Assembly (NCBI GenBank): GCA_034231615.1
Contig: CM067304.1
Location: 25,044,589-25,108,588, forward strand
From: Meghimatium bilineatum
Lineage: Eukaryota > Mollusca > Gastropoda > Stylommatophora > Philomycidae
Direction: 5' to 3'
DNA length: 64,000 nt
The position numbers were made by a program, and so were the translations under genes. The notes beneath the pieces were generated by a model. That model saw nothing but the letters and a program-made list of their open reading frames with translations. It did not search any database and was not told the origin of the DNA. Below, in pieces: positions 2,430-53,480 of this stretch; the first letter of the stretch is position 1; each line of letters begins with the position of its first letter.

Positions 2430-4110
2430 ATACATTACTTCTTATGCCACAAATTAAAGCTGCAGTGTATGCTGATCACTTGGTGGTGTGTAGAAGAACA
2501 TATAAAGATTGGCAACAAGAAAATACAAGAAGCAGCAGACAATATAGCAGCATGAGCAGAGAAACGCAGCAGACAATATAGCAGCATGAGCAGAGAAACG
2601 CAGCAGACAATATAGCAGCATGAGCAGAGAAACGCAGCAGACAATATAGCAGCATGAGCAGAGAAACGCAGCAGACAATATAGCAGCATGAGCAGAGAAA
2701 CGCAGCAGACAATATAGCAGCATGAGCAGAGAAACGCAGCAGACAATATAGCAGCATGAGCAGAGAAACGCAGCAGACAATATAGCAGCATGAGCAGAGA
2801 AACGCAACAGACAATATAGCAGCATGAGCAGAGAAACGCAGCAGACAATATAGCAGCATGAGCAGAGAAACGCAGCAGACAATATAGCAGCATGAGCAGA
2901 GAAACGCAGCAGACAATATAGCAGCATGAGCAGAGAAACGCAGCAGACAATATAGCAGCATGAGCAGAGAAATGAATGGTAAAGATCATTGCTGAAAAAT
3001 TCTCAATAACACTCTTCACTCTCTCAAATAAGGACAAAGCAGGAAAGATGAAACTTGGATATGTACGTATCTAAATAAAACCGGTTACTTGGGCACCACA
3101 CTACATAAGAGACTGACGTGGAGGTCTCACATTTAGAAAACGGGCATAGACAAGAAAGAAAGCTGCCATCCTAAGGAAATTATCAGGAAAGCTTGGGGGG
3201 GGGGTAGTGGCAATGCAGCAACCTTAAAGAAGGTATATATAGGTGCCATTAGGCAAACTTCAGCAGCCAATTCCCAGCTCTGGACAAAGCATAAAATCAA
3301 GCACTTTGCAATATCACAGGTGCCATGAAGGCCTCTTCCATAAATGAAATGGGAAATATAGCCACCACAACACCTCCAAACCATAGTCAGGGCATTAAGA
3401 CCATGATCTATGCAAAAAAGTACATGGGCTTGTGAGCACACCCAATGAAGACCAGATTTGGTGACATAGCCAGTAGGAGACTGAAGAGAAGCAGTTTATT
3501 CTCACAATAAAAAAACACTAAACAGAGATATAAAGAATATAAAGTGTTTCGAACTGATGTTTCTATCCTACAAGTCCTTGTGAGCGATAAACTGCCATAC
3601 CTAAAGAAAGCCATATGAGAAGTGAGCATCCAAATAAGCGTAGTACTACAGTGGATACCATCACACTGTGGCATACCAGGAAACAAAGAGGCAGGTATGC
3701 TGGCAAAAGATGGAGCAACAGGAACAAAAAGACCAAGAAATCACCTTCCAGGAAAAGAGGACCCTCATTAAAGCTATTAGGACAGTCGACCACCAAAACA
3801 ACAACTATTGCTATATTGATAGAGCTGAGCAGGTTATCATCTTCTGCATTAGGACATGACACAACAGACTAAACAATCACTTAAACATACTAAGACTGGT
3901 TCCATCATCTCTGTGTGAATATGGACAGGCAGACAGAATGAACATATCCTGCATTACACTAAACCAGTTAAAGGAAGAGCACGGGGCCACAGATCACGGA
4001 TATTCACAGAAAGCTGTATGGGAGCACTGTGGAGCTTTCAAATACAGCAGCATTTATTAAAAAAAACCAGACTTGCTATGTAGACATGTTAAACTGCGAA
4101 TGGGAAGAAG
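2430..4110 (+). mobile_element. RNase-H-type LINE fragment, degenerate, interrupted by a 34-bp array
   Basis: Frames in order show the RT core (AVYADHLVV), QEAADNIAA.AEK, TLFTLSNKDKAG, then GYLGTTLHKRLTWRSHI, the RNase H end (WIPSHCGIPGNKEAGMLAKD, read across frames) and a C-terminal IRTxHNRLNNHL block. The order is the same as in the intact LINE at 28564-33010 and it ends in the same GAAGAAGAAG tail (about 4095-4110). Many stops and frame changes show it is old. Confidence 0.8.
2532..2972. repeat. 34-bp minisatellite, about 13 copies, derived from LINE coding sequence
   Basis: Near-identical units begin CAGCAGACAATATAGCAGCA. The unit is the stretch of the surrounding LINE that codes AADNIAAWAEK, repeated in place. 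Because 34 is not a multiple of three, each copy shifts frame and all three minus-strand frames stay open, giving long but meaningless ORFs of up to 200 codons. Confidence 0.95.
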
Positions 4111-4439
4111 AAGAAGATGCCATTAAATTATTGAAAAAGTAGTGTCTAAAATGTGATTCATCTTGAGGACAGTTATTGTTATACCAATTTTAATGAAACA
4201 TAGCCCATATGTAAAAGATTGTAAAGTGTAAGCTCTTATTACATTATGCAGTTGTTTCATACAATGGTTTAAATATCAAAATTTGGAATACATATTAAGA
4301 GATTGCATTACAGTAGTAAGAATCTTATTTTAATAATTAAAACACCATTTATACCACCATATATTGCAAAATTGTTTATTTTGAATTTATAAAGCAAAAA
4401 TAATACTATAAATAATGTGAGGGAAGAACCTGATGCATT

Positions 4440-4830
4440 TTTAAAAGATTGTTAATATTCGGTTCAACTTTCGCTAAAAACAGTCGTAAATCGACATGAT
4501 CAGTTATATGCAACCAGTTCCTTTTCTTAGATAGTAAATTCACAACACTAAATCCACATTCAGCCAAATGAGAAGATGGAAATGCAATTCATAATTTCTA
4601 CACTATTTCCCATAATCCAGAGTACAGTATCAGTATTGATTTCTGAAGCCAGAACTTTTGGTATCCACTTTTGAATTTTATTTTTAGTTCTTCATTTGTT
4701 ATGAGTCCCTCCTCTAAATTTATGATCAGTGTGTTTACATGTGAGAAATGATCTAGAACCCAATATGGTATATTCATGTTTAGAATTGTTTTAGAATATT
4801 CATGCTCAATTGAAATCAGCATGGAGAACC
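4440..4830 (-). pseudogene. hAT (ZBED-type) transposase, C-terminal part
   Basis: Minus-strand frames read NIPYWVLDHFSHVNTL, then LKIKFKSGYQKFWLQKS, then FPSSHLAECGFSVVNLLSKK and LHITDHVDLRLFLAKVEPNI. This is the conserved end of ZBED5/FAM200-like hAT transposases (IPxWVxxPF, SxLxExGFS, LRLxLxxxxPxI). In-frame stops near 4600 and the lack of an intact N-terminal half show it is dead. The enclosing terminal repeats fit its being the transposase of that element. Confidence 0.8.
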
Positions 4831-4952
4831 TCTTGGCAGTATGTAAGTAAATCCTCCTTTTTGAGAGACACTGTGATAAATTTGAAAAGTGGCTATATTC
4901 CCCTTGGCAAATTCTGCTTGAACAGATGAAGTTTCCTCACTTGTATACACAC

Positions 4953-5116
4953 GCCGCCGAAGACGGATGTGTTGGACCATTGGTGCAAATAAAACTGCAA
5001 CACAACGCATTTCCATTCTCTGGACTACATTCAACTGGAAATCTTGTAGGATCATTGTCCTGTTGCAAGAGAAATCCAGTGGGAGTTTGAGAATGAACGC
5101 TGAAGAAGAAGAAGAA
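4953..5116 (+). mobile_element. SINE-2 copy with TSD
   Basis: A 164-bp element running from CCGAAGACGGATGTGT to a GAAGAAGAAG tail. Ten-base direct repeats GTATACACAC flank it at 4943-4952 and 5117-5126. The copy at 56626-56786 is highly similar. Confidence 0.85.
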
Positions 5117-5463
5117 GTATACACACATATATGCATGCTCTATTTTCTCATTGACATCTATTAAGTTATGTCAGATATGGTCAATTTTTAAATGATTAAA
5201 TAATTGAAATGAAAGTTTGATGAAAAAAATTGATCATGTAAGAGGGGCATATGATTAAGTAAAATTTAAATTTTGAATGATTATCCAATAGCAAAATCAT
5301 GAAAATAGTTAATTTTTAAATATAGTATTAGTTTCTTCAATAAGTAGTCACCAACCCCCTAGATTGCCTGAGTGCCCCCCCCCCCCCAGAATCCTACAGT
5401 GCCCGCTGGGGGCAGCACCATCCGCTTTGGGAACAAGTGGGTTCTATAGCCTATGCTTTAGAG

Positions 5464-5982
5464 CTATCAGAGCCAAAAGACTTCAACTGTAGACGGTGTA
5501 CAATGCTTTGAGAAGAAATCTGCTACTCAGAGGAGATCTATGACATTTGATAGATAACATAATTATTATGCTATGTACCCAATATTTATCTACAGTGATT
5601 TTAATGCCTGCAATAATTAATATGTTTAATGGTTAATAATCAGTATTTATTCAGGTTCAGCTTTTCTATGTGGGACTAATTTATTTGTAACCACTGTGCT
5701 GTGTGATCAGCATTCATAACTGCTGCCACAATGTGCTTTATATAAAACTGTATGTGAAGAACCTGCCATTTCAGTGTTTCTTTTGTTTCAACATTTGTGT
5801 AGTTTCAACATTGTTTGTTTTTCAACATTTTGTTTTCTTGTAAATATGTGAAGGTGAAGATTATCTAGAGTATAGGCATGCAAGATTTGTAAGTTTTCTG
5901 TCTGGTATTTGGTTGTAATATACATAAGTTGTCATGGCCACTGAGACATGTTGTACAATTAATGACAGGTTTGGTTTTTTTT
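5464..5982. other. No recognisable feature
   Basis: AT-rich, no supported ORF. It ends in a T-run that forms the insertion site of the following SINE. Confidence 0.5.
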
Positions 5983-5993
5983 TTTACATATGT

Positions 5994-6274
5994 CACCCGT
6001 GTGTTGCCAGGGCCAGAAAGGGGAGCAAAATAATAGCAACACTGTTTACCTTTCATGCATGTCGTAAGAGGCGACTAAGAAAGTTATGGGATGGAGTTGG
6101 CTGCCCCATCCCATATAGGGTCAGTGACCCAAAGCCATGCTGAAGTCAGATGTGTCAGGCCGAAAGGCGCAGATATCGCAGCAGTGCTGTAAACCATGAC
6201 ACAATGATTTCCGTTCTCCGGACTACATCCTGCTAATCTGCAGGAGTTTGAGAACGAACGCAGAAGAAGAAGAA
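5994..6274 (+). mobile_element. SINE-1, full-length, perfect TSD
   Basis: A 281-bp element from CACCCGTGTGTTGCCAGG to GCAGAAGAAGAAGAA, flanked by the 11-bp direct repeat TTTACATATGT at 5983-5993 and 6275-6285. A 5' module (GTCGTAAGAGGCGACTAAG) precedes a 3' module related to SINE-2 (GATGTGTCAGGCC, GGACTACATCCTGCT). No clear tRNA A/B boxes are visible, so the promoter type is unknown. Further copies occur at 16.4, 18.5 and 40.8 kb. Confidence 0.9.
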
Positions 6275-6382
6275 TTTACATATGTTTTTTTCTTTGAAAG
6301 GGGGACTACACATTGTAGAAGATCATGTACCTGTTTTGTAAGGTTCTTCCTACTCTGATGACAAGGCAAAAGTAAAGCATTA

Positions 6383-6484
6383 TTTTGAGTAAAGCAATGT
6401 TCCAACAGTATGATATTTTGAGTAAAGCAATGTTCCAACAGTATGATATTTTGAGTAAAGCAATGTTCCAACAGTATGATATTT
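6383..6484. repeat. 33-bp tandem repeat, three copies
   Basis: Three near-perfect units containing AGCAATGTTCCAACAGTATG. Confidence 0.9.
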
Positions 6485-6739
6485 TGGTGCACTCTTAAAA
6501 AAAATGATGTCATTGTGATGAAACTATGTCTGCCACATTGATAATGAATTTCCAACAGCTCTTCTACTGATTCAAAGACAATAAATCTGGGAGACAATCC
6601 AATTTCTACAAGAAAATGGCATATTGCATATTTTCAGACGTGTACACATGGCCATTCAATGTTTTTGTCATTAACCAGAAAACATGATGGTGGAGGTTCA
6701 ACTATTAAACCCACATCTCATTCTATAACAAACATGGCC

Positions 6740-6860
6740 TAATTCTAACCCTAACCCTAATATCTCATTCTACAGCTAACATGACCACATTCTAGCCCTA
6801 ATATCTCATTCTACAGATAACATGACCACATTCTAGCCCGAATATCTTATTCTACAACTA
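6740..6860. repeat. ~41-bp tandem repeat, about three copies
   Basis: Units share ATCTCATTCTACAG and ACATGACCACATTCTAGCCC. The first part contains two telomere-like CTAACC units, which look incidental. Confidence 0.75.
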
Positions 6861-7590
6861 ATACAGCCTAAACCTAACTCTTACTGTAATAAATCTATTT
6901 GAAAGCAAATCCCACAAAACAACTTCACCCTTAAGGAGAGTCCACTAACCTAAATACCTAGTGGAATTGACATTTAATATTTTAACACCAACAACCATTC
7001 ATAACTACTTAATCCTAATCAAGTCAACACACCAAATAACACTTCAATAGACAGATGTCTATGCTACGGAAAACCCTGCGAAATAATGCTATATTTGGAG
7101 TTGTTTGCTTCTGCAATTGTCAGAGTAGGAAGGACTGGGCCATTGAGTTAAAAAAAGAGAGCATCAGCACTAGAGATGAGTACCCAGTTCATGACACCAT
7201 TTGAGTACTAATCATTTAGGGCTGCTATTATTCAAAATAGATAATTTGAAGTCTAGTAAAGCATGATTTACAACGATGGCTTGTCCATTTCATTAGCATT
7301 TCCTATTTTTTTTAGTGTTGAAACCACATGCCATAAAACGTTGCTGGATACATTTTTAAAGAGAAATTCCTTCTATGTTTGCATCAGAACATAGGTTAAC
7401 ATAAGCAGACAAATAATAATGGTATATTGACTGCACCTGATTACAAATCCAAGCTTAGATTCCCAACAGGTATAGAACCTCAAGTAAAAAGACAGTTTCC
7501 TGGTAGGAATGGGGAACTCCTTGCTTTGCATAGATTGCTCATCCTTTTCTACTGTAGGATCCACAGGGATTGGAGCTACATTTGAAACCT
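6861..7590. other. No recognisable feature
   Basis: Unassigned DNA without a credible gene. Confidence 0.5.
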
Positions 7591-7599
7591 GGACACATC

Positions 7600-7917
7600 A
7601 CTATAGGACAATCTAATCATATTGGAAACCTGGACGCTGTACGATTACTGTAGCATAATCTATAACCTGGACGTTGTACAATTACTGTAGCATAAACTAT
7701 AACCTGGACGTTGTACAATTACTGTAGCATAAACTATAACCTGGACGCTATACAATTACTGTAGCATAATCTATAACCTGGAAGCTGTACAATTACTGTA
7801 GCATAATCTATAACCTGGATGCTGTACGATTACTGTAGCATAATCTAATCACATTTGAAACCTGGACACATTACTGGAGCACAATCTAATCACATTTGAA
7901 ACATGGACACATCACTG
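7600..7917. repeat. ~37-39 bp minisatellite, left half
   Basis: About seven units of the form ATAACCTGGACG...ACTGTAGCATAA, grading into units (ATCTAATCACATTTGAAACC) of the type found at 9618-10090. Confidence 0.9.
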
Positions 7918-7918
7918 T

Positions 7919-9617
7919 CAATCAAGTGCCATGCCAACTGTCGTAGGCGATCATGTTTCTCCATGACTCTGTCTCTTGTGTTGTCAATAAGCTCGGTTGG
8001 TGAGCTTCTACAGTGCAATGATACAAGCCCATCTAGTAATGTTTCTCTTTGTCGACCCCTATCTCTTCTCCATTTGATCTTTCCAGTGGTTATTAAGTGT
8101 TCAAGCTGTGTTTTTCTCAGCACATGCCCTAGAAACATTGACTGTCTGCCCCTAATGTTTGATATGATTGATCTTTTTACGCTAGCATCAATGAGAACAT
8201 CTGCATTAGTTTTTTTGGCTGTCTATGGTATTTTCATCATTCTTCTCAGAAACCACATTTCTGTACCCTCTAATTCGCTTTGAATTTTCTTGTTTACAGT
8301 CCATGCTTTACATCCATAAAAAAGAATTGGTTCTATATAACATCTCAGCACCCGAATTCGGGTCTGCATTGATATACTTCCATTGCAAAAAATGGTTATA
8401 ATTTTTTGGAATGCTGATTTGGCTTGTGCTGTTCGGCTCTTTATCTCACTTGAGCATCTACCTTCTGATGTTAACAGGGTGCCAAGATATTTCACTTTTC
8501 AACTTGTGCTAATTTTGTGTTATTAATTATTATGTTGCATCTTGGTGGTGTATGTCTCTTTGATACGACCATTATTTCTGTTTTCTTCTTGTCTAAACTG
8601 AGGCCTTTGTTTTCACTTTCCTTCACTACTTTATCTAATAGGGCTTGTAGTTCTTGTTCGCTTCCTGTGATCAGTACTGTGTCATCAGCATATCTCAAGT
8701 TATTTATATTGTATACTCCCACTTTTATTCCTGGCATATCTGCTATTTTTTGCATAATGTATTCTGTATACAGGGAGAAAAGGTCCGGTGACATTACACA
8801 ACCTTGCCTGACACCCATTTCTATCTTTTGAAATCTACCTATATAGTTGTTAACTCTCATCGCAGCTGTTTGTTTCCAATACATATTTCTTACTATTCTT
8901 AGATCTTTCCCATCAACGTTAAGATTTTCTAGCAGTTTTATAATCTCTGAATGCTTCGCCTTGTCAAATGTTTTGCTGTAATCTATGAAGCACAGATAAA
9001 GGTCTTGCTGTACTTCTATGGCCCTCTCCATTAATGTTCTTACTATACATAGGGCATTTCTTGTGTCTGTTCCTTCTACGTACCCGCATTGTTCGTCTGC
9101 TATCTCTGGTTTTATTTTTCCTCTTATATGCCTCATTATTATGCGCAGTAGAATATGGTCATCTGACTCATAAGACTAATTGTTCTGTGGTCTTCGCAAT
9201 CTACTGCACCAGGTTTCTTTGGTAGGGATGTGAAAATTGATTGTAGCAAATCAGATGGAATATAGCCACTGTTGTAGATGTCATTTAACATTTTGGTGAT
9301 AACTTCAAACGCCATAATCTCCCAGGGATTCTAATTCTTCTTTTGTAATCTTGTCTGGACCTGATGATTTGTTGTTTTTTAAGTGTTGTATGGATTCCTT
9401 TACTTCTGATTTTAATATACTTGGACCTTCATTGTTGTAATTTAAGTTAATATTATTTCTGTTATCTTCGTACAATTCTTTAATATATTCTTCCCATTTG
9501 TGCATGACTTCATTTTCTCCTATCAGTATGTGTCCCTGCTTAGATTTCAGGCACCCAGTCCTGTGAGCCTGCCCTCTGCCTGTTAATTCCTTTATTTGTA
9601 AATGTGTATGACTCATG
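7919..9617 (-). mobile_element. LINE family B, 5'-truncated, inserted in a minisatellite
   Basis: The minus strand codes, in order, a linker (ELTGRGQAHRTGCLKSKQGH), the RT with FIDYSKTFDKAKHSEIIKLL, GVRQGCVMSPDLFSLY and LRYADDTVLITGSEQE (the catalytic pair is in YADD), the post-RT KYLGTLLTSEGRCSSEIKS and WFLRRM, and the C-terminal FLGHVLRKTQLEHLITTGKI. Frame breaks separate these blocks. There is no RNase H, which fits the APE-type element class common in molluscs and arthropods. The direct repeat TCACTGT at 7912-7918 and 9618-9624, with array units on both sides, shows insertion into an existing minisatellite. Confidence 0.88.
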
Positions 9618-10090
9618 TCACTGTAGCATAATCTAATCACATTTGAAACTTGGACACATCACTAGGATAATCTAATCACATTTGAAACTTGACACATCAC
9701 TAGGATAATCTAATCACATTTGAAACTTGGACACATCACTAGGATAATCTAATCACATTTGAAACTTGGACACATCACTAGGATAATCTAATCACATTTG
9801 AAACTTGGACACATCACTAGGATAATCTAATCACATTTGAAACTTGGACACATCACTGTAGGATAATCGAATCACATTTGAAACTTTGACACATCACTGT
9901 AGGATAATCTAATCACATTTGAAACTTTGACACATCACTAGGATAATCTAATCACATTTGAAACTTGGACACATCACTGTAGGATAATCTAATCACGTTT
10001 GAAACTTGGACACATCACTAGGATAATCTAATCATATTTGAAACTTGGAAACATCACGGTAGGATAACCTAATTACATTTGCGTAGGTGT
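9618..10090. repeat. ~39-41 bp minisatellite, right half
   Basis: About twelve units with ATCTAATCACATTTGAAACT and GGACACATCACT. Units alternate between 39 bp and a 41-bp variant carrying an extra GT. One stray unit lies at 12110-12150. Confidence 0.93.
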
Positions 10091-10117
10091 CAACTAGTAC
10101 AGATTTTCTGTATTTAA

Positions 10118-10857
10118 CCTTTAGCGTGCTAGTTTACAATTATGTAATATTCTCCTCTGCCGCGGCATTGGTTTTTGCAAATATTACGCAATCGTCTGTG
10201 GCTGTTTTGAAATCGCGATAACTTTTTCGTTGTTACAGATACTTAAATAATATTTGCACATATAAATAAAGAAATAAATTCTGCATATATTGGTGTAAGT
10301 TTTGTTATCTATGTGTGATACAAGACATGTGAGAAAGTGATAAAGTCAAATTTAGACCTATCTCGATCTAGACCTACCAAATTTTTGGTCGATCATAAGC
10401 TGTGAAATCTGTTGAATATTATATATTTAACATAATGGAAACACTGGAATACGTTCTTCATTAAAAATCACAAATGAAGAACTTACCTTTGATAATTTGC
10501 GAATTTCCAGCTGTTTAAACATTGATTTCACTGAATATACTATTAGCAAATAGTATAATAAACACGATTCATTATCTTGTCGCTTCAACACGATGCAAAA
10601 AACCATAAATTCCTCGAATTTCCATGACAAAATCACTTCATATTGGCTTACTCGCCAATTTAAACAAAATGGGCATAAAATTTCTACCCACTATTGCCAT
10701 CGGATTCTATAAAAAATGTTACAAAATTTTCGGAATTTGATTTTTTCGTTCGCCATCGGGTTTTCTGAAGTGGGTGGTAGATTTTGATTCAGCGATCAAT
10801 ATATGCCAAATTCTGGTGAAATGCTTCACCAAAATTGTATACATAGCGTGCTAAAGG
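10118..10857. mobile_element. piggyBac-like MITE, copy 1
   Basis: TTAA at 10114-10117 and 10858-10861 flanks a 740-bp element with terminal inverted repeats CCTTTAGCGTGCTA and (reverse complement) CCTTTAGCACGCTA. TTAA target duplication and CCYT ends are piggyBac hallmarks. No transposase is coded inside, so it is non-autonomous. It shares an internal ~200-bp block with the copy at 16645. Confidence 0.85.
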
Positions 10858-10861
10858 TTAA

Positions 10862-12600
10862 CCAATTCAATCCCTGATATTCCATTGGCACCTGCTATGC
10901 GCACAGTAATTTTGATTGATGACTGTTACTGATTCAATGTGAATAGACATGCTAAATTTAACCCTGACATGATTACCAGTAATGGCGGCTTCCAGTGTTA
11001 TTTTCAGATTGTTTCTAGCAGCTGCTGTTTCTGAACTGCGAAAGGTTTATTATGACCATCAATTTTCGTCAAACTTGGTAAAAATGGACCTACTTATGAT
11101 TCAGATGATGTTCGGAGGCAATTTTTAAATGGAATTCTAGGGAACGTGAATCAATCAGACGTTGATGGAGTAGTAGTTCAGTATTTAGTAGACCTAGTTG
11201 AAATTAGCGACAATCTGTAGTGTAGGCCTAATAACCTAGTAATGATTGAGGATTATCAACACAGCGGATCTATGTCAATATTGATCAATTTCATGAAAAA
11301 TCTGATAATGCAAATGACATTCATCCAGATAACTATGCTTTGATCACAACTAGGCCTATCTTTCACTATTTCTACATGAGTCAATCATGTGCAGAGCTAA
11401 CCAATGTTGTGTATGCCTGTATAAAAATTTTCAGAAAAACCAGATCTGTTTTTTTTTTGAAACCTGTTTCACCAGATATCTAGGGCTTTCTTTATGTGAA
11501 CTAGGCCTATATATTTGGAGTAGTTAACAGTTACAGAATGCTGTTCTCATGCTGTTTAAAGAAGACTGCTTTGCAGCCTTTATGGGAACATTTATCAGCA
11601 AACAATTTGACACAAGTAAATGAAGCAGACATGAAACTGGTGCTTATTTTTTTCTCTCGCATGTTACATGACAAGTGAATTTGTCTTATATGACATTCAT
11701 GGATCAGTACTTGTTCCATTTATCTGTTAATTGGACTTTTAATCATAAAAATTGATTTCAATTGTAGTTTTGATTAATTTTCTTGCACAATCACCTCTTA
11801 TTTTTGCAGAGCTATTTCCCCTTGATCTGGGCATGATGCCTGGAGTTATTTCTGACTGGCTGGAATTGGATGGGTTAATATGGATTTCGTGCCCAAACCC
11901 CTCCCCCCCAACCCCATCCCAAATTTAACTCATTCTGCTTGTAAAAACTATATATCATTGCAGATAGAACCCCCAGTTCGGACGTATGCACGATTATTCG
12001 TTATTGCAGATATGCCATCTAAATTTGCTTTGTTTGGATCATAAATGAATTAACTTATTTAGCTGTTTAACATTTTAAAATCTGGCTAATGAAAGGTGGA
12101 CAATGTATGATCTCTGTAGGATAATCTAATCACATTTGAAACCTGAACAAAATGTATAATAACTGCCAAGCTATTTTTAGTGATCTACCAAATTGTTCGA
12201 AAACTATGACTATATATGCTCTAGCCCCTGAGCTTAGAAAATATTAAAGCTTAAACTATCTGGGCACAATACTTCCACAAGGACTTTTAAAAAAGCATTT
12301 GCCCATGAACATGCAAAGAATGCTCAATACAGTCCCACCAAACCAAAAATGTTGCCCAGTTCTGGTCTATTTATAGGAAAGCAAACATTTTAATTTAAAA
12401 AAAAACAACTGATATTCTTGATTCAATGACTTTTTTATTTTAATTACCATGGGTTATCCTGAGCACAGGTAGATAGATACAGGTAAAACATATGTTGTTG
12501 TTTGAACAAGTTCATAGTGAAGGTTGATCAATCAAACATATTACCTTGGATAATCAGACAGTTGAGAGACATGACACCGAAATATGTAATCATAGTTTCC
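10862..12600. other. No gene seen; one orphan minisatellite unit
   Basis: AT-rich. The stretch 12110-12150 matches one unit of the 9.6-10.1 kb array (GTAGGATAATCTAATCACAT). Nothing else is assignable. Confidence 0.5.
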
Positions 12601-12699
12601 TTATAACCATCAATAAGTTTTGTATGAAGTAAATTCTAGAAAAATTTGCACAAATAACTTTGTGAAAAAGAAGTCATTCACTTTATATTCATAAAGTTG

Positions 12700-12800
12700 T
12701 GAGTTTGAAATCAAACTGGAAGCCTTGTTTACAAGTGCACTTCCAAAAATCAAGCTGGAAGCATTATTTACAAGTGCGCTTCTCAAAATAAAGCTGGAAG
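12700..12800. repeat. ~41-bp duplication, 2.5 copies
   Basis: Units share AAGCTGGAAGC and TTTACAAGTGC.CTTC. Confidence 0.8.
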
Positions 12801-14120
12801 CCACCAGTTCTAATCTTGACTAGACCCAAAGAGACAAAATTGGGATAAGAAACTGTCAAGCACCTACAGTGGCCTCCATGAACTAATTGGAAACCAATAG
12901 CAGAAGATGAAGAATAATCCTGACTAAATCCATGTAGTACAATCACATATTATGTGCCTATTTTTCTGGAATGTGGAAGAAGTTTTATATTATGTATAGC
13001 TTCATTCCAAGTTATAGATAATGCAGTTTTCATGTCAATACATCACTAGCAGACCATGCGGAGATTAAATTATGCCACGATTTAATGCCACAAATGCGCA
13101 TTGGAGGAGATGGGATGATCATGGATATTAGGGGTAAGGTTAGACCTAATCATAACCCCCTAACACCCCCCCCCCCAAACTCCATACCTTACTGTCTCAA
13201 AGGAGACAGAAGCTATGTTCTTCCTTTTTTAAAATTGATTATTTCCTCTGGCTACATTTATCAATACAGCATCGATACTGCAGCCATTTCGCTAATAGAA
13301 ATGAACCAGCAGAGTGACATCGCAAACAACGAAACAATTGCAATCAGAGATGACATTAGAAACTACAAAAAAATTATGATCAGCACAGATACTTAAAAAC
13401 TGTGAGCACAGTAGGGACATCATATGTGATTGAACCATCCATGTTTCTTGCTTTGTATACAAAATGCTAACAGGAGGTTATTTTTAAATTATCAACTCAG
13501 TGCTAGAGTGGTTAAACTGTCTCACAACTAAAAGAAAACTCTAGAACTTGTTCATGGTTCAAAAACTGATCATTCACATTGTACTGGCAACACAATTGGA
13601 TGTATTAGTAGTGGCTAAAAATTCACCAATAGTTGAATGGCTATGGCTAATACAGAATATGCATCAATTATTATATTGTTTTTCATAATAATAGACATGT
13701 ACAAAAAAAGTGTATCTGTGGATTGAAGATTTCTTCAGTTACAGAACAACAACAGTAGAAAACAAACATTCAAACAAATAATTTCATTGATTATTATCAT
13801 CTGAAATTGTGGCAACAAAATTACCTAAACCATGATCACCACAATTGTTTTAATGTTAATAGTTCTGATATAACCAAGTAGGACTAACGTGCATGGTCGA
13901 AAGAAATGTATCTCACCATAAGAGGTACATTTTACATAACCAAATCAAATCATTTAATAGATATAAAATATAAATAAAAGTAGAACTGACTCTACAGTTG
14001 CCAGCCTGACAAAGTTATGTTAGTATGTTGCATCCGATATCTCCTTGTATAAGAAAAAGATTTAAACACAACTGACATTAGTACATATATGAAACAGGCT
14101 GCATACACAAAAACCTAAAA
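12801..14120. other. No gene seen
   Basis: AT-rich unassigned DNA; a 103-codon frame at 13085-13396 has low complexity and no family resemblance. Confidence 0.45.
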
Positions 14121-14124
14121 TCAT

Positions 14125-16545: not shown

Positions 16546-16644
16546 TAGAAAAGCGTTGAATATTGATCTCCATTTTGGACCTCGGCAACACACTGTCGAT
16601 GTGTAATTTAACAAGCATAGCACCACACATGCACACCTGATTAA

Positions 16645-17792: not shown

Positions 17793-39238
<21,446 letters not shown>

Positions 39239-40689: not shown

Positions 40690-40945
40690 TGATATCTTCT
40701 GTGTCCATTCTCAAACTTCTGCAGAATAGCAGGATATAGTCCAGAGAATGGAATGCATTGTGTCATGGTTCACATGTTGCGATATCTGCACCTTTTGGCC
40801 TGATGCATCTGACTTCAGCATGGCTGCAGGTCACTTTGACCCTATATGGGATGGGACAGCCAACTTCAAAACATAACCTCCCTAGTCATCTCCTATGACA
40901 TGCATGGAAGGTAAAAGGTAAAGATATGTGCCATGGCAACAACCT
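40690..40945 (-). mobile_element. SINE-1 copy
   Basis: The reverse complement matches SINE-1 over almost its whole length (AGCAGGATATAGTCCAGAGA, CATCTGACTTCAGCATGGCT, TATATGGGATGGGACAGCCA). The far 5' end is lost. Confidence 0.85.
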
Positions 40946-41034
40946 GAGATGATGGATAACTCGTCATATACTAAGCCGCAGCAACTATTATGTGGGCTGG
41001 CCAGTTCCCTTCCTTGCTGTCTTTACCTCCCCTA

Positions 41035-41215: not shown

Positions 41216-41249
41216 ATGGAAAGTAAACAGTGTTGCTATTCTTCGTTCA

Positions 41250-42870: not shown

Positions 42871-42879
42871 TCTATATAA

Positions 42880-43340
42880 ATAATGTTAATGTTATCATAT
42901 CATGGTGTCTTGACAGTCTATATGCTGTATCCCAAATGTGCCTAACGGCATCTGAGGTAGAAAAGTTCTCTGGAGATGACCTTCCTGTGTGCTGTTTGTA
43001 AACTTGCTCCTGTGGGTTCTTTGATTTGAATGGCAAGACCATTCTGTCATCCATCTTTTACATGGTCTGCCTCTGGCTTTATAGCCGTTATGTCTATCTG
43101 CCATGGCCATCTGTGGCATTCTGTCTGATGGTAGTCAGAAAGTGTGTGAAAACTACTTGATCTGTTGTCTTTTGATTGTTTTGGTTATCTGTCTGATGTT
43201 ATCATTTCTAATTCTATCTCTTAATGACACTCCGAGTATTCTTCATAGACAAGTCATTTCTGCATATCCTAGAAAATTTTGTCTTAGATGTTGTGTGTTG
43301 CTAAAGTATCGTATTGATGCTGTGAAGACACAGATTAAGT
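42880..43340 (-). mobile_element. LINE C-terminal fragment
   Basis: The minus strand reads VSLRDRIRNDNIRQITKTIK, then DRMPQMAMADRHNGYKARGR and PCKRWMDDRM, the RIRN...GRPxKRW block that ends several APE-type LINEs; frame breaks present. Confidence 0.6.
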
Positions 43341-43513
43341 ACTAGGACATCTAGAATTAGTATGTATGGAAAATTTTGCATAGGCTATACATTTCTTGTG
43401 ACCAGGGTTTACATTTAGTGAGCACATGTTTGCAACTAGATTTATTAAGTTCTGCAACCATTTTTATTTTTATGAGTGCTGGACATTGCCAAAAACAGCA
43501 GCTAATTTAAAAA

Positions 43514-43880
43514 AAATTATTCAATTATGCAAATTAGTTGCTATTTTGAATAGGCCTATTAATTAGTTGTACATGCATCTGAGAATCACAGCAATGTGAT
43601 CAACAGATGCATCTTGTCTTTGCAAATACAAAAATATATAGTTTCTGTGGCATTTTATTATGCTTAATAGATAGGCTATAGGGCCTATAATTTATTTTCA
43701 TTATAATTATGCTAATTAGCTGCCATTTTGAATATCAAGTAGTTCTGTATTCATCTGAAAATTTGAGAAATGTGATCAACATATAGGCCATAAGTGACTT
43801 GTCTTTGTGAACACAGAAATTTATAGTTTGTTTATTGTACTATTGAAAATAACTCAGATAATTCAGAAATTATCAACTCA
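43514..43880. repeat. Diverged ~185-bp duplication
   Basis: Two long units share AATTATGC.AATTAG, ATTTTGAATA and ATGTGATCAACA in order; a third partial copy begins near 43860. Confidence 0.6.
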
Positions 43881-44940
43881 TCTGCATTTTGTGGTAACAC
43901 GTTTAATTAATATTTCCTATAGGCCTATGTTTCATGTAAAACATATTGATGTCAAATTAATTTGAAAAAAAGTATAGGCCTAACTTTTTTCAGGATGGGA
44001 TTACATATATGGTTTAGGTATCGTTATTTGCAATTTTAAAGAGCTATCTAACTATAGACTATAGAGTATTATTAATTATAAGTACAAGTAATATCATTTA
44101 TAGTAGGCCTAGACCCTAAAGTAGACTTACCAGTAAACACAATAATGAACATAAAATAACATTTTTGTTCATCATTACTCTTAGTTAAGCAAAATAAATT
44201 AAGCAGGTTACGAATTTATATAATTTATACGAAAATTATGGGTCTATCCATATTCCATATTCTTCATTATTCTGCTGTGTATTATATTAAATTTGATATA
44301 GGTTATACGTAAATTAAACCTAACATACCAAAAAGGTTAACCTTTCAGAATAAGTACAATAAGTATACAATTCATAGAATTAATGTAAGGATATTTCTTA
44401 AAGAGAATCAAACCTGGGAAAATTGTAAGTCACTAGTTGTGTACGACTACCTCTTAGCAACAGTCGTTGCCACAACGGAAGTCTCTTTCTAGTGTATCCA
44501 TTGGGTTTCTATAATTAAAAGACATTTGATTGGGCACTCCAAAAAGGCACGATAGGACCTACTTGGGGTTTTTGTTGTTTCCAATTTTTTTAAGGTATAG
44601 CTTCCTGTAGTGATTGGGGTTGACCGATACGTCCTGAATATGATATTCTACCAATTTTTCATTTTCAGTGCGTCCTGATATAACCTATGTGGACTTTGTT
44701 TGTTGTCCGCTGGTTGAAAAGGACTCGCCTCTCCAAAAGAGAGATAAACTCATTACCACTACTGCAACTACTACATAACAAACAAGACAAAGCTGATAAT
44801 TCATTTTCACCCTCCAGTCAACAATTGACTAAAGTTATAAAAACTTATACACATATTATGCCGTAGGCCCTATATTGTCTTGTCTATCTATTGTCTTGTT
44901 TTTGCTTTTGTCGTTAGGCGTCGCATGATTAAATGAGGAA
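43881..44940. other. AT-rich DNA, possible TEKT1 upstream region
   Basis: No coding sequence. A strong minus-strand donor (ACTG|GTAAGT at 44131/44130) and, upstream of it, CGTTGTGGCAACG (about 44468-44480), reminiscent of RFX X-box half-sites, could belong to a noncoding first exon and promoter of TEKT1. This is a guess. Confidence 0.25.
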
Positions 44941-44944
44941 CGGT

Positions 44945-45250
44945 TCCATTTTATTTTTCGCCCACCACAAGAAAATGATGACCAATTGTTAATAAATTTT
45001 GGAAATTCAGTTATGTCCGTGATTATGAGTTCGTAGGTGGCAATAAGCCATACTCTGGTTGCAAATGTCATTAGATAGTTCGGGCATGAAATGATCACTG
45101 TATATGGTTTTTAGTCTACCCCTGACTTTCTAGCTACTTTCCGCTGTTGAGCGGCTGCATTTCTCATTTTTTCACCCTAGCCTATGATGCGTCCTTTTTG
45201 ACTGTAGAGCGCAGTGTAGTTCAATTTTGTGCAAGTTCTTTCCATGTATC
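44945..45250 (-). mobile_element. LINE family E, 3' end with C2H2-like finger
   Basis: The minus strand reads VIISCPNYLMTFATRVWLIA with Tyr in place of the second Cys, then YELIITDITEFPKF, and the shared tail including GGTCATCATTTTCTTGTGG. Confidence 0.7.
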
Positions 45251-45259
45251 TTGATCCAT

Positions 45260-46680
45260 TTCAAACTTGTTTGTATATTTGTTTACTAATGGTTACCTCA
45301 TTTGGTAGAGATACGCTCAATTCAACCTAGGATTGGTTTCCATATTGGTTATATCAGGGCCTCTGGGGACCCATGTTTTTTGTGACGTGTGCCTAATTGG
45401 CGCTAGAACTTGACTATCCAGCCGGATTTGCCGCTGTGCCTTCTAGCTGCAACCCTTAAAATGAATATTTGTGGATTTTCCTCGTTCCAATGATGGGATA
45501 AGTGTAGCCTGTCTTGGTAGCCATTAGAAGGGCTATTTGTTGTGTGGTCTGTTTATTGTTTATTACCTGTCGTCTATTGACAGGGCTACTTTTTATTGTG
45601 ATGCTTGTGTCGTCTGCTAGTCGATTTACGCTTTTTCTCCAACTGTTTCTCCTCATTGATGATGTCGTTTGTGATTGTCGGGTCACCGTCTTCTTCAGGA
45701 GTTTTGGCTGCTACTTGATGTGCCGGTTGGATGTACCTCGCTCCTGTATAGTTTGTTTCTCCTTTTATTTAAATTTTTTTTTCTAATTTATAAATTTATA
45801 TAGGCTTACACAAAATGAGTATCTTACAAATTAATGTAATTTATAAACATAAATATATAAATACAAGCCTCTTGGCCGTTCATTGATCAATGCTCGGTTG
45901 TGTAATGTACATTGATCAAAGTGTAGGTTATCCTTGTGGTTGACTGGATCTTTTAAAACATAATTTTACATAATTTGTTCACATACTATTAAATAACAGT
46001 ATCCTAACTAATACTTGCTAGTAACTAATACTGCATTCACTACCTAAAGTTATATATTCGCTCATTCTCACACATAAAGGGCCTATTCGGTACACACATT
46101 GAGATTACTCTCTTTTGGCTTAATACATATTGTGTTCCTAAATAAAGTTATATTCTCAATTATTCATTAATTAGCAGCTATAGTTATATATAAGGATTCG
46201 TGCCCTAATACGAGATTTATATTCTCACTCATACATTAAATCTGTTATATCATTATACACATTCAAATCTTATAGTTATCATTCTTACTCAAGCCCTTAT
46301 ATATATATTCATATTCTCAAGTTTGATTCTCACTCAACCAGTAAGTACAGTTATATATTCACTCATTCGCTAATATGCCTACATATTCAACAAATATTCT
46401 TTCTAATGCCCTTATACATATTCCTGACCTAAAGTTAATTTACTCTCATCCAATGAAAACAGTAATATACTCGTACCTTAACGCACAGGCCTATTCTGTT
46501 CTAAATTATATTTTCATTTTTATCCTAATAAATATTCCGTGGATTCATTGTTCAATACATTTTGTTCTTTACTTCCTCATGCCCTGCTACATATTCATTG
46601 TAATAATATAATAGGGCAATAAACAAAAACTGCTCATTCGTTTTCTCAATTGCGGTGGTGGAGTTTGTATGTGTATGATG
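45260..46680. other. AT-rich DNA with degenerate short repeats
   Basis: Between 45,960 and 46,560 words such as ATATTCTCACTCAT and AGTTATATA recur at irregular spacing. No gene is supported; a 90-codon frame at 45514-45786 is not recognised. Confidence 0.4.
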
Positions 46681-46689
46681 AAGTATGTG

Positions 46690-47075
46690 CTATTTTGCTT
46701 TTGTAGACTGAAACTCAGCAGCACCGCAGAGGTGTCTCATCAGGGGTGCTTGGTATGTAGGCCTATGTGTGTCATATTTTGTTTTAGCGGGCAGAAACTC
46801 AGCACAAGCGCAAGATTGTCTCATTTGGGGTGTGTAGTATGTATATGTGTTATATTTTGTTTTAGCGGGCAGAAACACAGCACACGCGCAAGGTTGTCTC
46901 ATTTGGGGTTTGTAGTATGTATATGTGTTATATTTTGTTTTAGTGAGCCGAAACTCAGCACAAGCGCAAGGATGTCTAATTTCGCGTGTGTAGTATGTAT
47001 ATGCGTTATATTTTGTTCTAGCGGGCAGAAACTCAGCACAAGCGCAAGGTTGTCTATTTCAAACGCTTTCAGCGA
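46690..47075. repeat. ~79-bp tandem repeat, five diverged copies
   Basis: Units share GCGGGCAGAAACTCAGCAC and GTATGTATATGTGTTATATT, with spacing of 77-83 bp. Confidence 0.9.
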
Positions 47076-47214
47076 GGTCTTTAAATAGTATAGGGTAGTC
47101 GGGGGAAAGATGGCTTGTGGGGTAAGAGAGTGCAGCGGGTTTTTTTCCGGTAGGACTCGCAACTAGATCTGGTGCGAAAAGTTCATTCTTTGATACAACA
47201 AAATTTGGCAGCTA

Positions 47215-47478
47215 ATGGGCAACAATATAAGAAAAAGGCAATCTTCTTTTTTTGGCCACTTCATGAGACAGGCAGGTTTAGAGAACATAATCACAACAGG
47301 CAAGATTGAAGGCACCAGAGACAGAGGGCGACAACGTGAGAAAATATTAGACAGTTTGACAACCTGGCACGGCAAAGAAACAACAACGACTTTGATACAT
47401 AATACTGTGGACAGAGAGCGGTGGAGAGCCATGACCGCCTACGCCACCCGGCATGGCACCTGATGATGATGATGATGA
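47215..47478 (+). mobile_element. LINE family B, 5'-truncated 3' end
   Basis: Open from SSFFGHFMRQAGLENIITTG through KIEGTRDRGRQREKILDSLT to YATRHGT, stop, then the family's (TGA)n tail. This is the best-preserved family B C-terminus in the window. Confidence 0.88.
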
Positions 47479-47697
47479 ATGGGCATGTCGTTTTTCAACA
47501 ATGAGATTCGTTTGTTTTTCATAGGTCTCGATATAATTTTTGTTAAACTATTTACTCCTTTTCTTCTGTTATCTTTACTGTCCGTTTTTCTTACATGTTT
47601 AAACTGAAGCATGTATTGTATTGTTAAATTATTAATTGCGTTACCTCGTCAATGTATTTTTTGTGTGTGACAATTTATTATAGTTGCTAATCTTGTG

Positions 47698-47751
47698 AGA
47701 TGGCGCATAGTTAGCAGGGTAAGATGTTGCTGTTCACTCGATGCGCCATCT
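47698..47751. repeat. Inverted repeat
   Basis: AGATGGCGCAT and, about 32 bp on, ATGCGCCATCT form 11-bp arms. Related words (GGGGTAAGA, AGATGGC) also occur near 47105-47130. Confidence 0.7.
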
Positions 47752-47885
47752 TACCCCACTAAGTGTGGTCATTAGTCCCCCTCATTTTGCAAAGTATTTA
47801 AACCAGTTAAACAGTTTCATTAACTGTCTCCTTTACGTTTATTTTTAGCAATTACAAACGGAAGAACGATAACAGGAAGCCATCA

Positions 47886-48000
47886 GTCATAGATGCACAC
47901 TCCCCGCCATTTATAAATGCACAATCTCCGCCTTCATAGATGCACAATCTGCACCAGTCATAGATGTACAATCTCCACCAGTCATAGATGCACGATGTCC
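47886..48000. repeat. ~27-bp tandem repeat, about five copies
   Basis: Units share AGTCATAGATGCACAATCTCC. Confidence 0.85.
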
Positions 48001-48390
48001 GTGTACATAGTCCTTTGTTTTCTATAATTTTCTAATTATTTTGCAGTTTTTGTCAATTCTCTGTTGATTTCATATTTATTTGTTTCACCTTTTTTCCCCG
48101 CGCAATCTTACACCCAAAATTAGGCAGATTTAATTTTTTTTATATATGTTAGAAAATTACCATTCTACTGTCTACACGTAGATATATTTGTTCAACAACC
48201 TCACCATTGTAAGATGGATAAGCTATACACTGATGGCAGTTTGGTCTCTCATAATTAAGTCTAATTGTCAGAATAGTTAAAAAGTGCACCATCTTCCTCT
48301 TGACTACTCTATTTAGTGCTTCTTTTGACCATCATGATATCGTATACCTATCTGCGATTCACCATAGAGTCATTAAGTATCTTTAGCAGA
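48001..48390. other. No recognisable feature
   Basis: AT-rich, unassigned. Confidence 0.5.
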
Positions 48391-48394
48391 CGAT

Positions 48395-48618
48395 GATTTG
48401 GTCAACGTACCAGATGACATGCCTAGCTAATTTGTGTCTGCATCAGAATATTATCAATGCTGGGGATACCAGATGTGTCAAGACAGTGGAATCCGGTATC
48501 TTGTCTTACCATCTGATGTTCATACCCGCCTTTGAGACAAGTTGAGTGAAATTGATTGAGTTCCTTACATATCGTCTATACCACAGTCCATGTTTCACTA
48601 GCGTATAACAACACTGGA
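48395..48618 (-). mobile_element. LINE family E, post-RT fragment
   Basis: The reverse complement is collinear with 53860-54070 (GCTAGTGAAACATGGACTGT, GAACATCAGATGG.AAGA). It abuts the family G fragment of opposite orientation. Confidence 0.75.
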
Positions 48619-48639
48619 AGTTGTCAGTGGTATTGGTCA

Positions 48640-49290
48640 ATAAGAACTCCGGTGAAGGGGATGTGATTATATACACAGATGGATTGGTCGTTAGACATGT
48701 TCGCAATGCGTTGGTCTTCACAGCTCAGAGTGCAGGGAATAGTGTTAGGGAAGAGAGTGGAGCTTTTGCTGTGACTACGAGTAGTATGACTGTAGAGATC
48801 ATGGCGATGATTATGCATTAGAATGGGTCAGCTCACAGAGGTCTGTACGGACCTGTATCACGTGTGACTCGATGAGTATGATTATGAAAGTACAGAAGGG
48901 TCTTGTTCGTGAACAATGGACTGATATTTTGAGAGGGTCGAGGTTGGAGACGGTGATTTTTATTTTCGTGCCTGGGCCTGTTGGCGCACGGGGCAACGAG
49001 AGAGCTGTCTTGCTGGCGTCAGGTGCTGTTGTTACACCCAGGGAGGAGCAATGAATCGGGCAGATGTGTTGAATTCCCTACACTAGTCAGCACGTGAAAG
49101 TGAACTCGAAGTGGATGATGATTGTTATTCATTGGCTAGAATTAAGGAACAGGGTTTGAAATGTGGGGTCACCAGAGGGGAGCAGTTTGCAGGGCGCAGA
49201 AGAATGATGGTCAATCAACATAGACCCGGAACTGTCAGCAGAGATGTAATAGTGGATACAGAGAGAACGGAGCACCTATGGTACTTTGTC
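48640..49290 (+). mobile_element. LINE family G, RNase H and C-terminal part
   Basis: Frames read DVIIYTDGLVVRHVRNALVF, ESGAFAVTTSSMTVEIMAM, CITCDSMSMIMKVQKGLV, FIFVPGPVGARGNERAVLLA and NQHRPGTVSRDVIVDTERTE. Three RNase H acidic positions are kept, but the last Asp (normally ADRLA) is Val. A second RNase-H-bearing LINE family, distinct from family A. Confidence 0.85.
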
Positions 49291-49399
49291 AATGACATAC
49301 CGCTTTATGATGTGTCCAAAAGATGTGGACTGTCTCTGATGCGTGTAAACAACTTTCTTTTTGAATTAACTTATTTCACTATATCTTTTTTACTGCTTT

Positions 49400-49920
49400 T
49401 TATCTGTTCACGGTGTCTTAACATTCTTCTATAAAACCATATCTCTGCTGTCTCAATATAATTTGTGAATTCTACTGAGTATTCAAGACACATTTCCATA
49501 CACCAAAATTGGCTCTATATAACTTCTAAGAACTATATTTCTCACCTCAATTGACAACGATATATTACATAGGGTGATCTTCATCTTGTGAAATGATGCC
49601 TTTGCTTGTGAAATTATACATTTGACTTCTTTAATACATCTTCCATCTTATGTTATTAATGTACCTAAAATATCAATATGTTGACTTTCTTCGGACTGAG
49701 ACTTTATAGTGCATTCTGGAGGACATTTATTCTTTGATATTACCATTTGTTCAGTTTTTCTGTTATTCAGACTAACGCCATTGTTTTGACTTTTTTCTCT
49801 CAATAATATTCATCTATTGTTGTAGCTGTGTTTCATTTTCAGTTATCAGAACTGTATTATCAGCGTATCGTATGTTGTTTATAATATGCTATTCAACTGA
49901 TATTCCTGATATGACGAGGA
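49400..49920 (-). mobile_element. LINE family B, RT/post-RT fragment
   Basis: The minus strand reads TIRYADNTVLITENETQLQQ, VSLNNRKTEQMVISKNK, DGRCIKEVKCIISQAKASFH and VLRSYIEPILVYG. The catalytic DD is DN here, so it is inactive. Confidence 0.8.
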
Positions 49921-50029
49921 GATATAATCACTAAACTAGTTTTCCGGTAGCATGTCCTATTCAGGACATAGCTATCATCCCAGCATTTGTTGGCTATGGT
50001 AGGGAGCTTTAATACAATTATTAAAAAAT

Positions 50030-51800
50030 ATGAACATACATAGATACATGAAGGCTGGCTACATAGCTATCTACGCCTCATACCTAAGCCTGGTCAAGAC
50101 ACGACGTTGTTAAGCAGATACAGAACCAATACATAATATATACGGAAATCTACTAGAACAAATAGTGGCCAAGCTAGAGAATGAAAAAATCTTACCAGAA
50201 ACGATTAAGACCTATGAGGGAGAAGAATCAAAATCGTGCAAAATTTGATTACAACGTCGATGGGGCTTCAAACACAAGAAAATGGCAGTCGCTGTTGCTA
50301 TTGATCTGGGGGACGCATATAACAGTGAATACCTCTAGACACTATCTACTACATGATAGATGCAGAAAATCGAATTTTGGCTTCTACAATGAACAGACTC
50401 TGTAGTGACAAAAAGACCACGAGCTCCGTTTTGGATCTTGGACATAGGACTCTCAAAGAATATGCCTGGGACTTCCAGAAGGGTAGAAATTGTTGCATGT
50501 ACTAATCAATATTTATACAGCGAAGGTGGAAAGCATCTAATCAACTGGCTCAGTCCGTACATTGTCCTGTGCTGATGACATCTTAATCTATATAATTGTT
50601 TCTGATAAGCGGGAAATGGCCAAAAGTAACAAGGAGAGAATACAGATCATTTCTAGATAGTATCATAACACTAGTACAAAGGTTAATTCAGAACAAAGTA
50701 AGTTTGATGTGGTAATCGTCGAATAACTTAATAGTACGGGCGGATCCACCAAATATCACCTTTAAAGGTCAAGACATTATATAGAGTTATATAATGAAAT
50801 AATTGGGGGGGGGGGGGAGGAACATTCGAACAAAGTCTATCATGTATGTTCCATTCTGATCATGTCATACAGAGATGTAAACGTGGCCTGGAGCTAGTGG
50901 CTTCTAACACTGCTCATACAGAGATGTAAACGTGGCCTGGAACTAGTGGCTTCTAACACTGCTCATACAGAGATGTAAACGTGGCATGGAGCTAGTGGCT
51001 TCTAACACTGCTCATAAAGAGATGTAAACGTGGCCTGGAGCTAGTGGCTTCTAACACTGTTCATACAGAGATGTAAACGTGGCATGGAGCTAGTGGCTTC
51101 TAACACTGTTCATACAGAGATGTAAACGTGGCCTGGAGCTAGTGGCTTCTAACACTGCTCATACAGAGATGTAAACGTGGCCTGGAGCTAGTGGCTTCTA
51201 ACACTGCTCATACAGAGATGTAAACGTGGCCTGGAGCTAGTGGCTTCTAACACTGCTCATACAGAGATGTAAACGTGGCATGGAGTTAGTGGCTTCTAAC
51301 ACTGCTCATACAGAGATGTAAACGTAGCCTGGATCTAATGGCTTCTAACACTGCTCATACAGAATGTCAGTGGTTGGAATGCATAGTCTGAGGATTCACT
51401 AAAGATACCTCGATCGTGGTAATTAGATACATGTAAGGTACATCATCCATCAAATCGTGACATTTATTTTCCCAGATTGATACATACATGTGAGTTGTCA
51501 GTTATAAAAATCTTCGCTCCAGGAACATTACAGATAATAATAGTTCTATATTTGATATTATAATGTGATGTATGGAAGTATTGAGAAATTTTCAAATACA
51601 ACAACATTTCTCAAATAAATCGGAATTACTGTGGAGACATGTTAAATTGCAAAAGAGAAGAGGAATAAGAAGAGGGGAAATGTAATTGATGGCGCAAGAA
51701 TAAGCAAATAGTGCACTAGTTATCATATCAGATTCTTTCGTTAGAGGAGAGGAATCGATAAACGCTATGGAGGTCATGGACAATTACTTGCAGGTCATCG
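50030..51800 (+). mobile_element. LINE family G, RT region, interrupted by a 49-bp array
   Basis: Frames read NLLEQIVAKLENEKILPET, KMAVAVAIDLGDAYN (the RT block with DLxxAYN), HSDHVIQRCKRGLELVAS and, past the array, GFTKDTSIVVIRYM. The order matches RNase-H LINEs of the type at 48640. Many stops. Confidence 0.75.
50865..51360. repeat. 49-bp minisatellite, ten copies, derived from LINE coding sequence
   Basis: Units with ACAGAGATGTAAACGTGGCC and AGTGGCTTCTAACACTGCTC, starting about every 49 nt from 50882 to 51323. Each codes IQRCKRGLELVASNTA, the LINE residues at that point. Confidence 0.95.
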
Positions 51801-51949
51801 TTACACAGGGCGGTTAGAACATGGTACAATAAGAAAGAAAGTGGAACTTGAAATGCAACAATTGTTATGTGATAGCGCATTGGAAGATCACGTCTATACA
51901 ACAACAATAATAATAATAAAACTCATAACCAGCCAGGGTCATAGTGGTG

Positions 51950-53480
51950 TCACATTGATATACTTTATGCAGAAAGATCTAAAATAATTATTCTCTTCCA
52001 CCCTGACACCCTGATGAGTTTGAAAACTTCACACTGTCCAACTTTGATTTTATCCAACCATGTCTTTCTTTGTCTAGCACGACTTCTTCCACCCTCCATC
52101 ATACCTAGAATTTGTTACAGGCTTTTGATAATATGTCTATAGTAATGTTTAGATCGGTCTTAGGTTTGGCATTTAGGGCACATTCATAAGCAGGTAGGAG
52201 ATCTCTATATAGTGCCTCTATGACAGAGATGATGTTGCTGTCGAAATTAAACTCTCGCATAGTATTCCACAGACCTGTATACCTAACACAGTCAAAAGCT
52301 TTTGTGAAATCAATCAAGTTATGGAATAGACCGCGTTGGAGCTGCAAGTGCTTTTCACTTATTGGACGTAGATCGAAAATGTGTTTCACTGTATTTCTGT
52401 TTCTTCTGAATCCGACCTATTCTTCTGTCTAGATTTTTTTCTTTATCTATTGAGTATAATCCTCAGCATAGGCCTAACTTCACTTGAGTATAATCCTCAG
52501 CATAGGCCTAACTTCACTTATAATCCTCAGCATAGGCCTAACTTCACTTGAGTATAATCCTCAGCATAGGCCTAACTTCACTTGAGTATAATCCTCAGCA
52601 TAGGCCTAACTTCACTTGAGTATAATCCTCAGCATAGGCCTAACTTCACTTGAGTATAATCCTCATCATAGGCCTAACTTCACTTGGATGTGAAAGAGAC
52701 TGATTGTTCTTTAGGTTTTTGCACCAATTTAAATCTATTTTTATTTTAGAAATGGTTTTTGTAGTGACTGCGTCCATTTTTTTCAGGCAATATTTTCGTA
52801 GCCTAAATCCGATATATTATTGACATGACGTAAATCATTGCTTCTTCCTCCATGTGTGACAATTCCGCCGAGATGTTGTCATTTCCTATTTCAGTGAAGA
52901 AAATGCTTCCTTCACTTCATCACTGCTTCCTCTGTTGTTTATCCAGATATGGTTTAGTAATTGATTCTGTGGTACATCTTCATGTTTATATAACTCTCTA
53001 CAATATTCCCTCCATCTTCATCTCCATTTCTTTTATATTCAGTATTGTTGCATTTTTGTCGTCTATAATAGAAATCTTGGGTTTTCTTTGCTGTGTTATT
53101 TTTCTTCTAAAGTTTCAAAAGCGGTTTTACTTTTACCATGTGACATGTTGTTGTGAATGGAATCACACTGTGCATTGATGCAGTTTTCTTTATCTTTTTA
53201 CATTTTAGTATTAATAGTTTTATTTAGTGCACTATAAGTCAGGACTGCCATTGGATTATGTTTTTGTCATTTTATTTAGCTCTCTAATGTTATCATATAC
53301 GTTTAATATGTCTTCAGTAAGCCCAGGGTTTACTGGCTGTGTGTTTCTTGCCTAGTAGCTGTGTTAACTAACACGGCTTTCAGGTTCTCAGTCAGTGAGT
53401 TGATATCGTCCTCTAATAAGTTCAAAGTTGCACATGTACCTCCTATAGTTGCACTATCCACTAGCCAGAATCTCTTCATC
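51950..53480 (-). mobile_element. LINE family F, interrupted by a 34-bp array
   Basis: Along the minus strand: DINSLTENLKAVLVNTATR, LTYSALNKTI, AFETLEEK (endonuclease-RT linker), QSLSHPSEV.PMLRIIL, VGFRRNRNTVKHIFDLR, LFHNLIDFTKAFDCVRYTGL (RT), then after a deletion SRARQRKTWLDKIK (C-terminal). Frame breaks throughout. Confidence 0.82.
52453..52690. repeat. 34-bp minisatellite, about seven copies, derived from LINE coding sequence
   Basis: Units of TATAATCCTCAGCATAGGCC; one unit is shortened to about 28 bp. Reverse-complemented, each codes SEVRPMLRIIL, the RT residues found once in related elements (SKVMLRIIL). Confidence 0.95.

Follow-up and report, generated by a model that had tools for sequence, protein, structure and literature searches.

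We analysed a 64,000-nucleotide stretch of the genome of the gastropod Meghimatium bilineatum (positions 25,044,589 to 25,108,588 of contig CM067304.1, assembly GCA_034231615.1; hereafter the window), which carries decayed long interspersed nuclear elements (LINEs), a tektin gene and a series of short tandem arrays (Table 1). Three of these arrays had been singled out in an earlier reading of the window (the original prediction) as LINE reverse transcriptase (RT) code turned into tandem repeats. Tandem Repeats Finder (TRF) recovers all three in their places, as head-to-tail units of minisatellite size (34, 49 and 34 bp, in 7 to 13 copies; minisatellite units are about 10-100 bp long). It is very probable, in our view, that they are ordinary minisatellites born where they now stand, by events at the DNA level, in animal DNA that is rich in both minisatellites and LINEs.

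Array 1 lies in LINE RT code, and LINE code continues on either side of it. The protein encoded by the least decayed LINE of the window (29742-32969; RVT_1, E = 5.3e-40; RNase_H, E = 5.7e-19) served as query in a frameshift-tolerant alignment, which passes through the array by jumping exactly 408 bp (12 x 34), a result stable at all five jump costs applied (14 to 40). First-order Markov randomisations were used as controls for this bridge and for the RT-like alignments: of 300 randomisations per flank, none scored above 74 on the right, where the real sequence reached 150, or above 45 on the left, where the real score of 48 wins by a small margin. The unit corresponds to RT code immediately downstream of a YADD-like motif and is derived from the transposable element (TE) at its locus; it had no matches in viral contigs. 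A single substitution was found across the 441 bp. Each of the 13 copies contains the same TGA stop, at a tryptophan position of the aligned LINE protein, and a total of 6 frameshifts and 4 stops interrupt the host alignment that spans the array.

The unit of array 3 is likewise LINE RT code derived from the TE at its locus, on the minus strand (we take the LINEs of the window to be Jockey-like and RTE-like, and use these clade names as labels). An RTE-like RT from the window aligns to 52490-52207 (score 98, fitted P = 3e-8). RVT_1 has a match at 52488-52207 (E = 2.7e-4), which, like the RT alignment, extends into the terminal copy of the array. When a narrower slice was searched, the RVT_1 match began at 52446, just outside the array (E = 3.5e-5); both RVT_1 matches are below the Pfam curated cut-off. 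For the other flank (above 52686), 10 of 300 randomised sequences aligned as well.

The order of events could be the reverse, with LINEs inserted into existing arrays or units captured from elsewhere. This appears to have happened at one other array, where the 7-bp TCACTGT flanks the LINE at 7919-9617 at both junctions, as a target-site duplication would, so that the element seems to have landed in a pre-existing minisatellite. For the arrays considered here we regard the reversed order as extremely improbable, as the units of arrays 1 and 3 themselves encode the RT segment expected at their positions, and the exact 12-unit bridge contradicts it at array 1.

The placement of array 2 inside LINE RT code is only suggestive. 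A G-P-G block and an ADD motif can be seen by eye at RT spacing in its left flank, and a 103-bp stretch 200 bp downstream of the array (51569-51670) matches the 3' part of the array-1 LINE (4015-4117) at 76%. The periodic run stops at 51363. Randomised sequences performed as well as the real slices in 142 of 300 cases for the left flank, 247 of 300 for the right flank, 11 of 300 for 50760-50920, and 86 of 300 when a piece of the array-1 LINE was compared with the left flank. A lenient bridging alignment did put the array in RT code, and was rejected as proof since the flanks aligned no better than randomised sequences. Pfam gave no RT match around array 2; a six-frame Pfam search of the first 5 kb of the window also returned nothing, despite the array-1 LINE located there, so Pfam is too insensitive for such broken LINE copies. 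A Jockey-like LINE family would fit the flanks of array 2; it was considered only after the window had been read, and was not used as support. The claim that the arrays sit in LINE RT code stands for arrays 1 and 3 (through the bridge, RVT_1 and the RTE-like RT) and was not confirmed for array 2 (given the randomised slices and the missing Pfam RT match). The claim of three unrelated families was not confirmed either: the 76% stretch is common to the elements at arrays 1 and 2, which disfavours unrelated hosts.

Table 1. Features of the window (positions are counted from its first letter)
Feature	Position	Strand	Details
Array 1 (A)	2532-2972	+	34-bp unit, 12 full copies + 33 bp; TRF 13.0 copies, 99% matches
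Decayed LINE hosting array 1, RT and RNase H code	2440-4117	+	several frameshifts and stops; ends approximate
Array 2 (N)	50865-51367	+	49-bp unit, 10 copies + 9-bp partial copy TCATACAGA; TRF 10.3 copies, 96%
Probable decayed LINE around array 2	50469-51670	+	RT read only by eye; 76% match of 51569-51670 to 4015-4117
Array 3 (O)	52450-52686	-	34-bp unit, 7 copies (one 4 bp short) + TTG; TRF 7.1 copies, 95%
Decayed RTE-like LINE RT hosting array 3	52207-52886	-	part above 52686 weakly supported
Least decayed LINE: endonuclease, RT, RNase H	28600-33012	+	used as query; no internal array; outer ends approximate
RTE-like LINE within older minisatellite	7919-9617	-	TCACTGT at 7912-7918 and 9618-9624
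Minisatellite part, one side of the 7919-9617 LINE	7578-7918		TRF, unit comparison
Minisatellite part, other side of the 7919-9617 LINE	9618-10081		unit family common with 7578-7918
Tektin gene	17811-39193	-	seven Pfam Tektin matches in order, profile 1-382 of 383
Tektin exon matches	39193-39044, 36861-36676, 34514-34371, 26474-26325, 22519-22292, 18152-18003, 17999-17811	-	Pfam Tektin

Arrays inside and outside LINEs

Three striking arrays need a base rate, as several are expected to fall in LINE code wherever a region is rich in both minisatellites and LINEs. TRF returned 43 rows for the window, which correspond to 20 distinct minisatellites with a total of 7,619 bp (units of at least 20 bp, TRF score of at least 93, overlapping rows merged). 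Arrays 1-3 are a selection from these, the other 17 having been left unmentioned by the original prediction. By counting the two halves of the LINE-split minisatellite (7578-7918 and 9618-10081) once, we obtained 19 independent arrays. Five of the 20 fall inside the span of the tektin gene, between matched exons, which argues against a tie of array birth to LINEs.

The LINE intervals were delimited manually on the basis of protein and DNA comparisons, with in-window proteins as the only protein queries. They cover 25.4% of the array-free DNA, or 22.0% when only the intervals anchored to a LINE protein query and the array-2 element are kept (an estimate that omits seven LINE-like intervals used in the larger one). 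At these shares, LINEs would be expected to hold 4.8 or 4.2 of the 19 arrays, and at most 3 are observed there (P(>=3) = 0.90 or 0.82); leaving out array 2, the expectation is 4.4 or 3.7 of 18, with 2 observed (P = 0.95 or 0.91). No excess of arrays in LINEs over LINE coverage is shown in this window, and LINE-specific amplification, which such an excess would mark, finds no support here. A general tendency of LINEs to turn into arrays had been proposed; the outcome that the proposal itself had named, at genome scale, as refuting it, an overlap no higher than LINE coverage, is the one found within this window. As LINEs account for no less than roughly a fifth of the region, some arrays land in LINE code, of which RT is the most recognisable part.

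A related possibility is that LINE RT code, rather than LINEs as a whole, is a preferred substrate for minisatellite birth in this genome. RT code constitutes 9.4% of the DNA, and the at most 3 arrays observed in it compare with 1.8 expected among 19 (P = 0.26); for the 12 arrays with at least 4 copies the expectation is 1.1 (P = 0.096). These differences are not significant, the RT status of array 2 is unproven, and without it 2 arrays are observed against 1.5 expected (P = 0.46). We hence give such a preference little credence. Quite improbable, too, is a narrower form of it, in which LINE RT code, unlike other LINE sequence, would be a mild hotspot for the birth of long minisatellites owing to a DNA property that provokes duplication after the element's death. 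If an excess in RT code were established genome-wide, it would be relevant to how minisatellites are initiated, a step still unsolved.

Array ends and the order of events

We reason that ordinary minisatellite birth would start with a single duplication of a short piece, frequently between short direct repeats or through an end-joining accident, and that the duplicate would then be expanded and kept uniform via slippage, unequal exchange or gene conversion. For array 1 the order would be LINE insertion, decay, and in-place amplification of a 34-bp piece; both this order and the actual step (slippage or unequal exchange) are what we infer from the arrays as they now stand. Because all 13 copies share one stop codon, the amplification of array 1 probably followed the death of its host element.

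The arrays might instead go back to retrotransposition itself, if the LINE RT slipped on its template or switched templates and so left short tandem duplications at insertion, later expanded. Two of them do lie in LINE RT code, and the third probably does. Considering that the stop codon inside the RT is common to all copies of array 1, that the aligned part of its host is broken by those same frameshifts and stops, and that arrays are no rarer outside LINEs, we find this origin quite improbable. Of the alternatives put forward in the original prediction, DNA-level duplication such as replication slippage fits the data, whereas aborted reverse transcription fits array 1 badly.

The array ends bear on the first duplication. 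Terminal partial copies measure 9 bp at array 2 and 7, 5 and 15 bp at the arrays at 6381, 27242 and 58081, respectively, while the remainder is 3 bp at array 3 and 0 bp at array 1 and at the array at 18853. In these seven cleanly bounded arrays (of the 20; array 1 was set to 0 from a raw remainder of 33 of 34 bp, and array 3 to 3 given its 4-bp deletion), a partial terminal copy of at least 5 bp occurs in four, as compared with 0.8% of 200,000 random breakpoints (an indicative P = 1.7e-7). Such copies suggest that short direct repeats took part in the first duplication; array 2 (9 bp) has a repeat in the range of roughly 5-10 bp at its unit ends, and arrays 1 and 3 do not.

Several points weigh against birth in place as we describe it. 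The seven arrays of the junction count were hand-picked after the remainders had been seen, and its P value is to be read accordingly. Other arrays, with indels, mismatches or blurred ends, gave remainders of 20, 36, 7, 1, 14, 32, 39, 55, 13, 4 and 5 bp, and three arrays gave none; arrays 1 and 3 (0 and 3 bp) are without long terminal repeats. In principle, the stop codon of array 1 could also have been spread by homogenisation that followed an early duplication. The LINE coverage is a lower bound, and more LINE could raise expected and observed counts alike. Lastly, there is the mild, non-significant excess for RT code among the longer arrays (P = 0.096).

Neighbouring gene and dispersed repeats

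The first of the seven Tektin matches (39193-39044) falls below the Pfam cut-off; one tektin exon, compared with solved structures, had its best match in an unnumbered tektin (8snb), followed by Tektin-4. Two large minisatellites lie between tektin exons, at 24457-26240 (30 bp x 59; it stops 85 bp short of a tektin exon match) and 36941-38582 (48 bp x 35). Rfam and tRNA scans of the window gave no matches.

In the least decayed LINE a stop codon separates the open pieces 29031-29738 and 29742-32969. Six dispersed stretches (1136-1336, 35242-35577, 45003-45263, 48319-48621, 53790-54279 and 63145-63352) are linked by matches of 76-83%; judged by their motifs they resemble LINE C-terminal or 3' ends, and they are not anchored to a LINE. 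Two further repeat pairs, of unassigned family, are 6045-6267 / 40695-40915 (84% identical) and 4950-5116 / 56623-56789 (87%).

Two LINE proteins of the window gave 4 and 2 pattern matches in viral contigs, none of them confirmed by tblastn. The tblastn matches in 4 plasmid records and 1 phage record were to bacterial-type RT, RNase H or unannotated sequence, at less than 60% identity. None of the 17 loci from a degenerate motif scan (13 in genome contigs, 4 in viral contigs) matched the LINE proteins at 1e-3, the best value in a rerun with a positive control being E = 0.043.

Relation to described minisatellites

Arrays 1 and 3, and probably array 2, are new cases of already described TE-derived minisatellites. 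The original prediction had known of no described system of this kind, yet TE-derived tandem arrays in general are documented in three publications (PMC3389668, PMC6947457, PMC9659126). In the human genome at least 7,276 TE-derived minisatellites and satellites represent 23% of all; most of them began when an individual element inserted, or later, and grew locally, and the postulated initiation mechanisms account for only 6% of the TE-derived cases (PMC3389668). Minisatellites arising from TEs have been reviewed (PMC6947457), and satellites from LINE ORF2 have been listed, among them PROsat, Pvc 20 and HinfI of chicken (PMC9659126). Among the papers listed by our literature searches, none dealt specifically with minisatellites in LINE RT code.

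Like the human TE-derived minisatellites (PMC3389668), the three arrays are short and their units are pieces of TE copies (in array 2 probably so); unlike that set, they involve LINEs that we take to be Jockey-like and RTE-like, and come from one window only. The Haber-Louis and Taylor-Breden models of minisatellite birth, as described in PMC6947457 and PMC3389668, envisage direct repeats of some 5-10 bp on either side, or a last copy that is incomplete. The terminal copies at array 2 and at the arrays at 6381, 27242 and 58081 resemble this arrangement, whereas arrays 1 and 3 differ from it, with 0 and 3 bp, and may have arisen through another initiation step. In PROsat, Pvc 20 and HinfI of chicken the unit, or a part of it, is likewise related to LINE ORF2 code (PMC9659126); those are satellite families, while the arrays described here are single, short and local.
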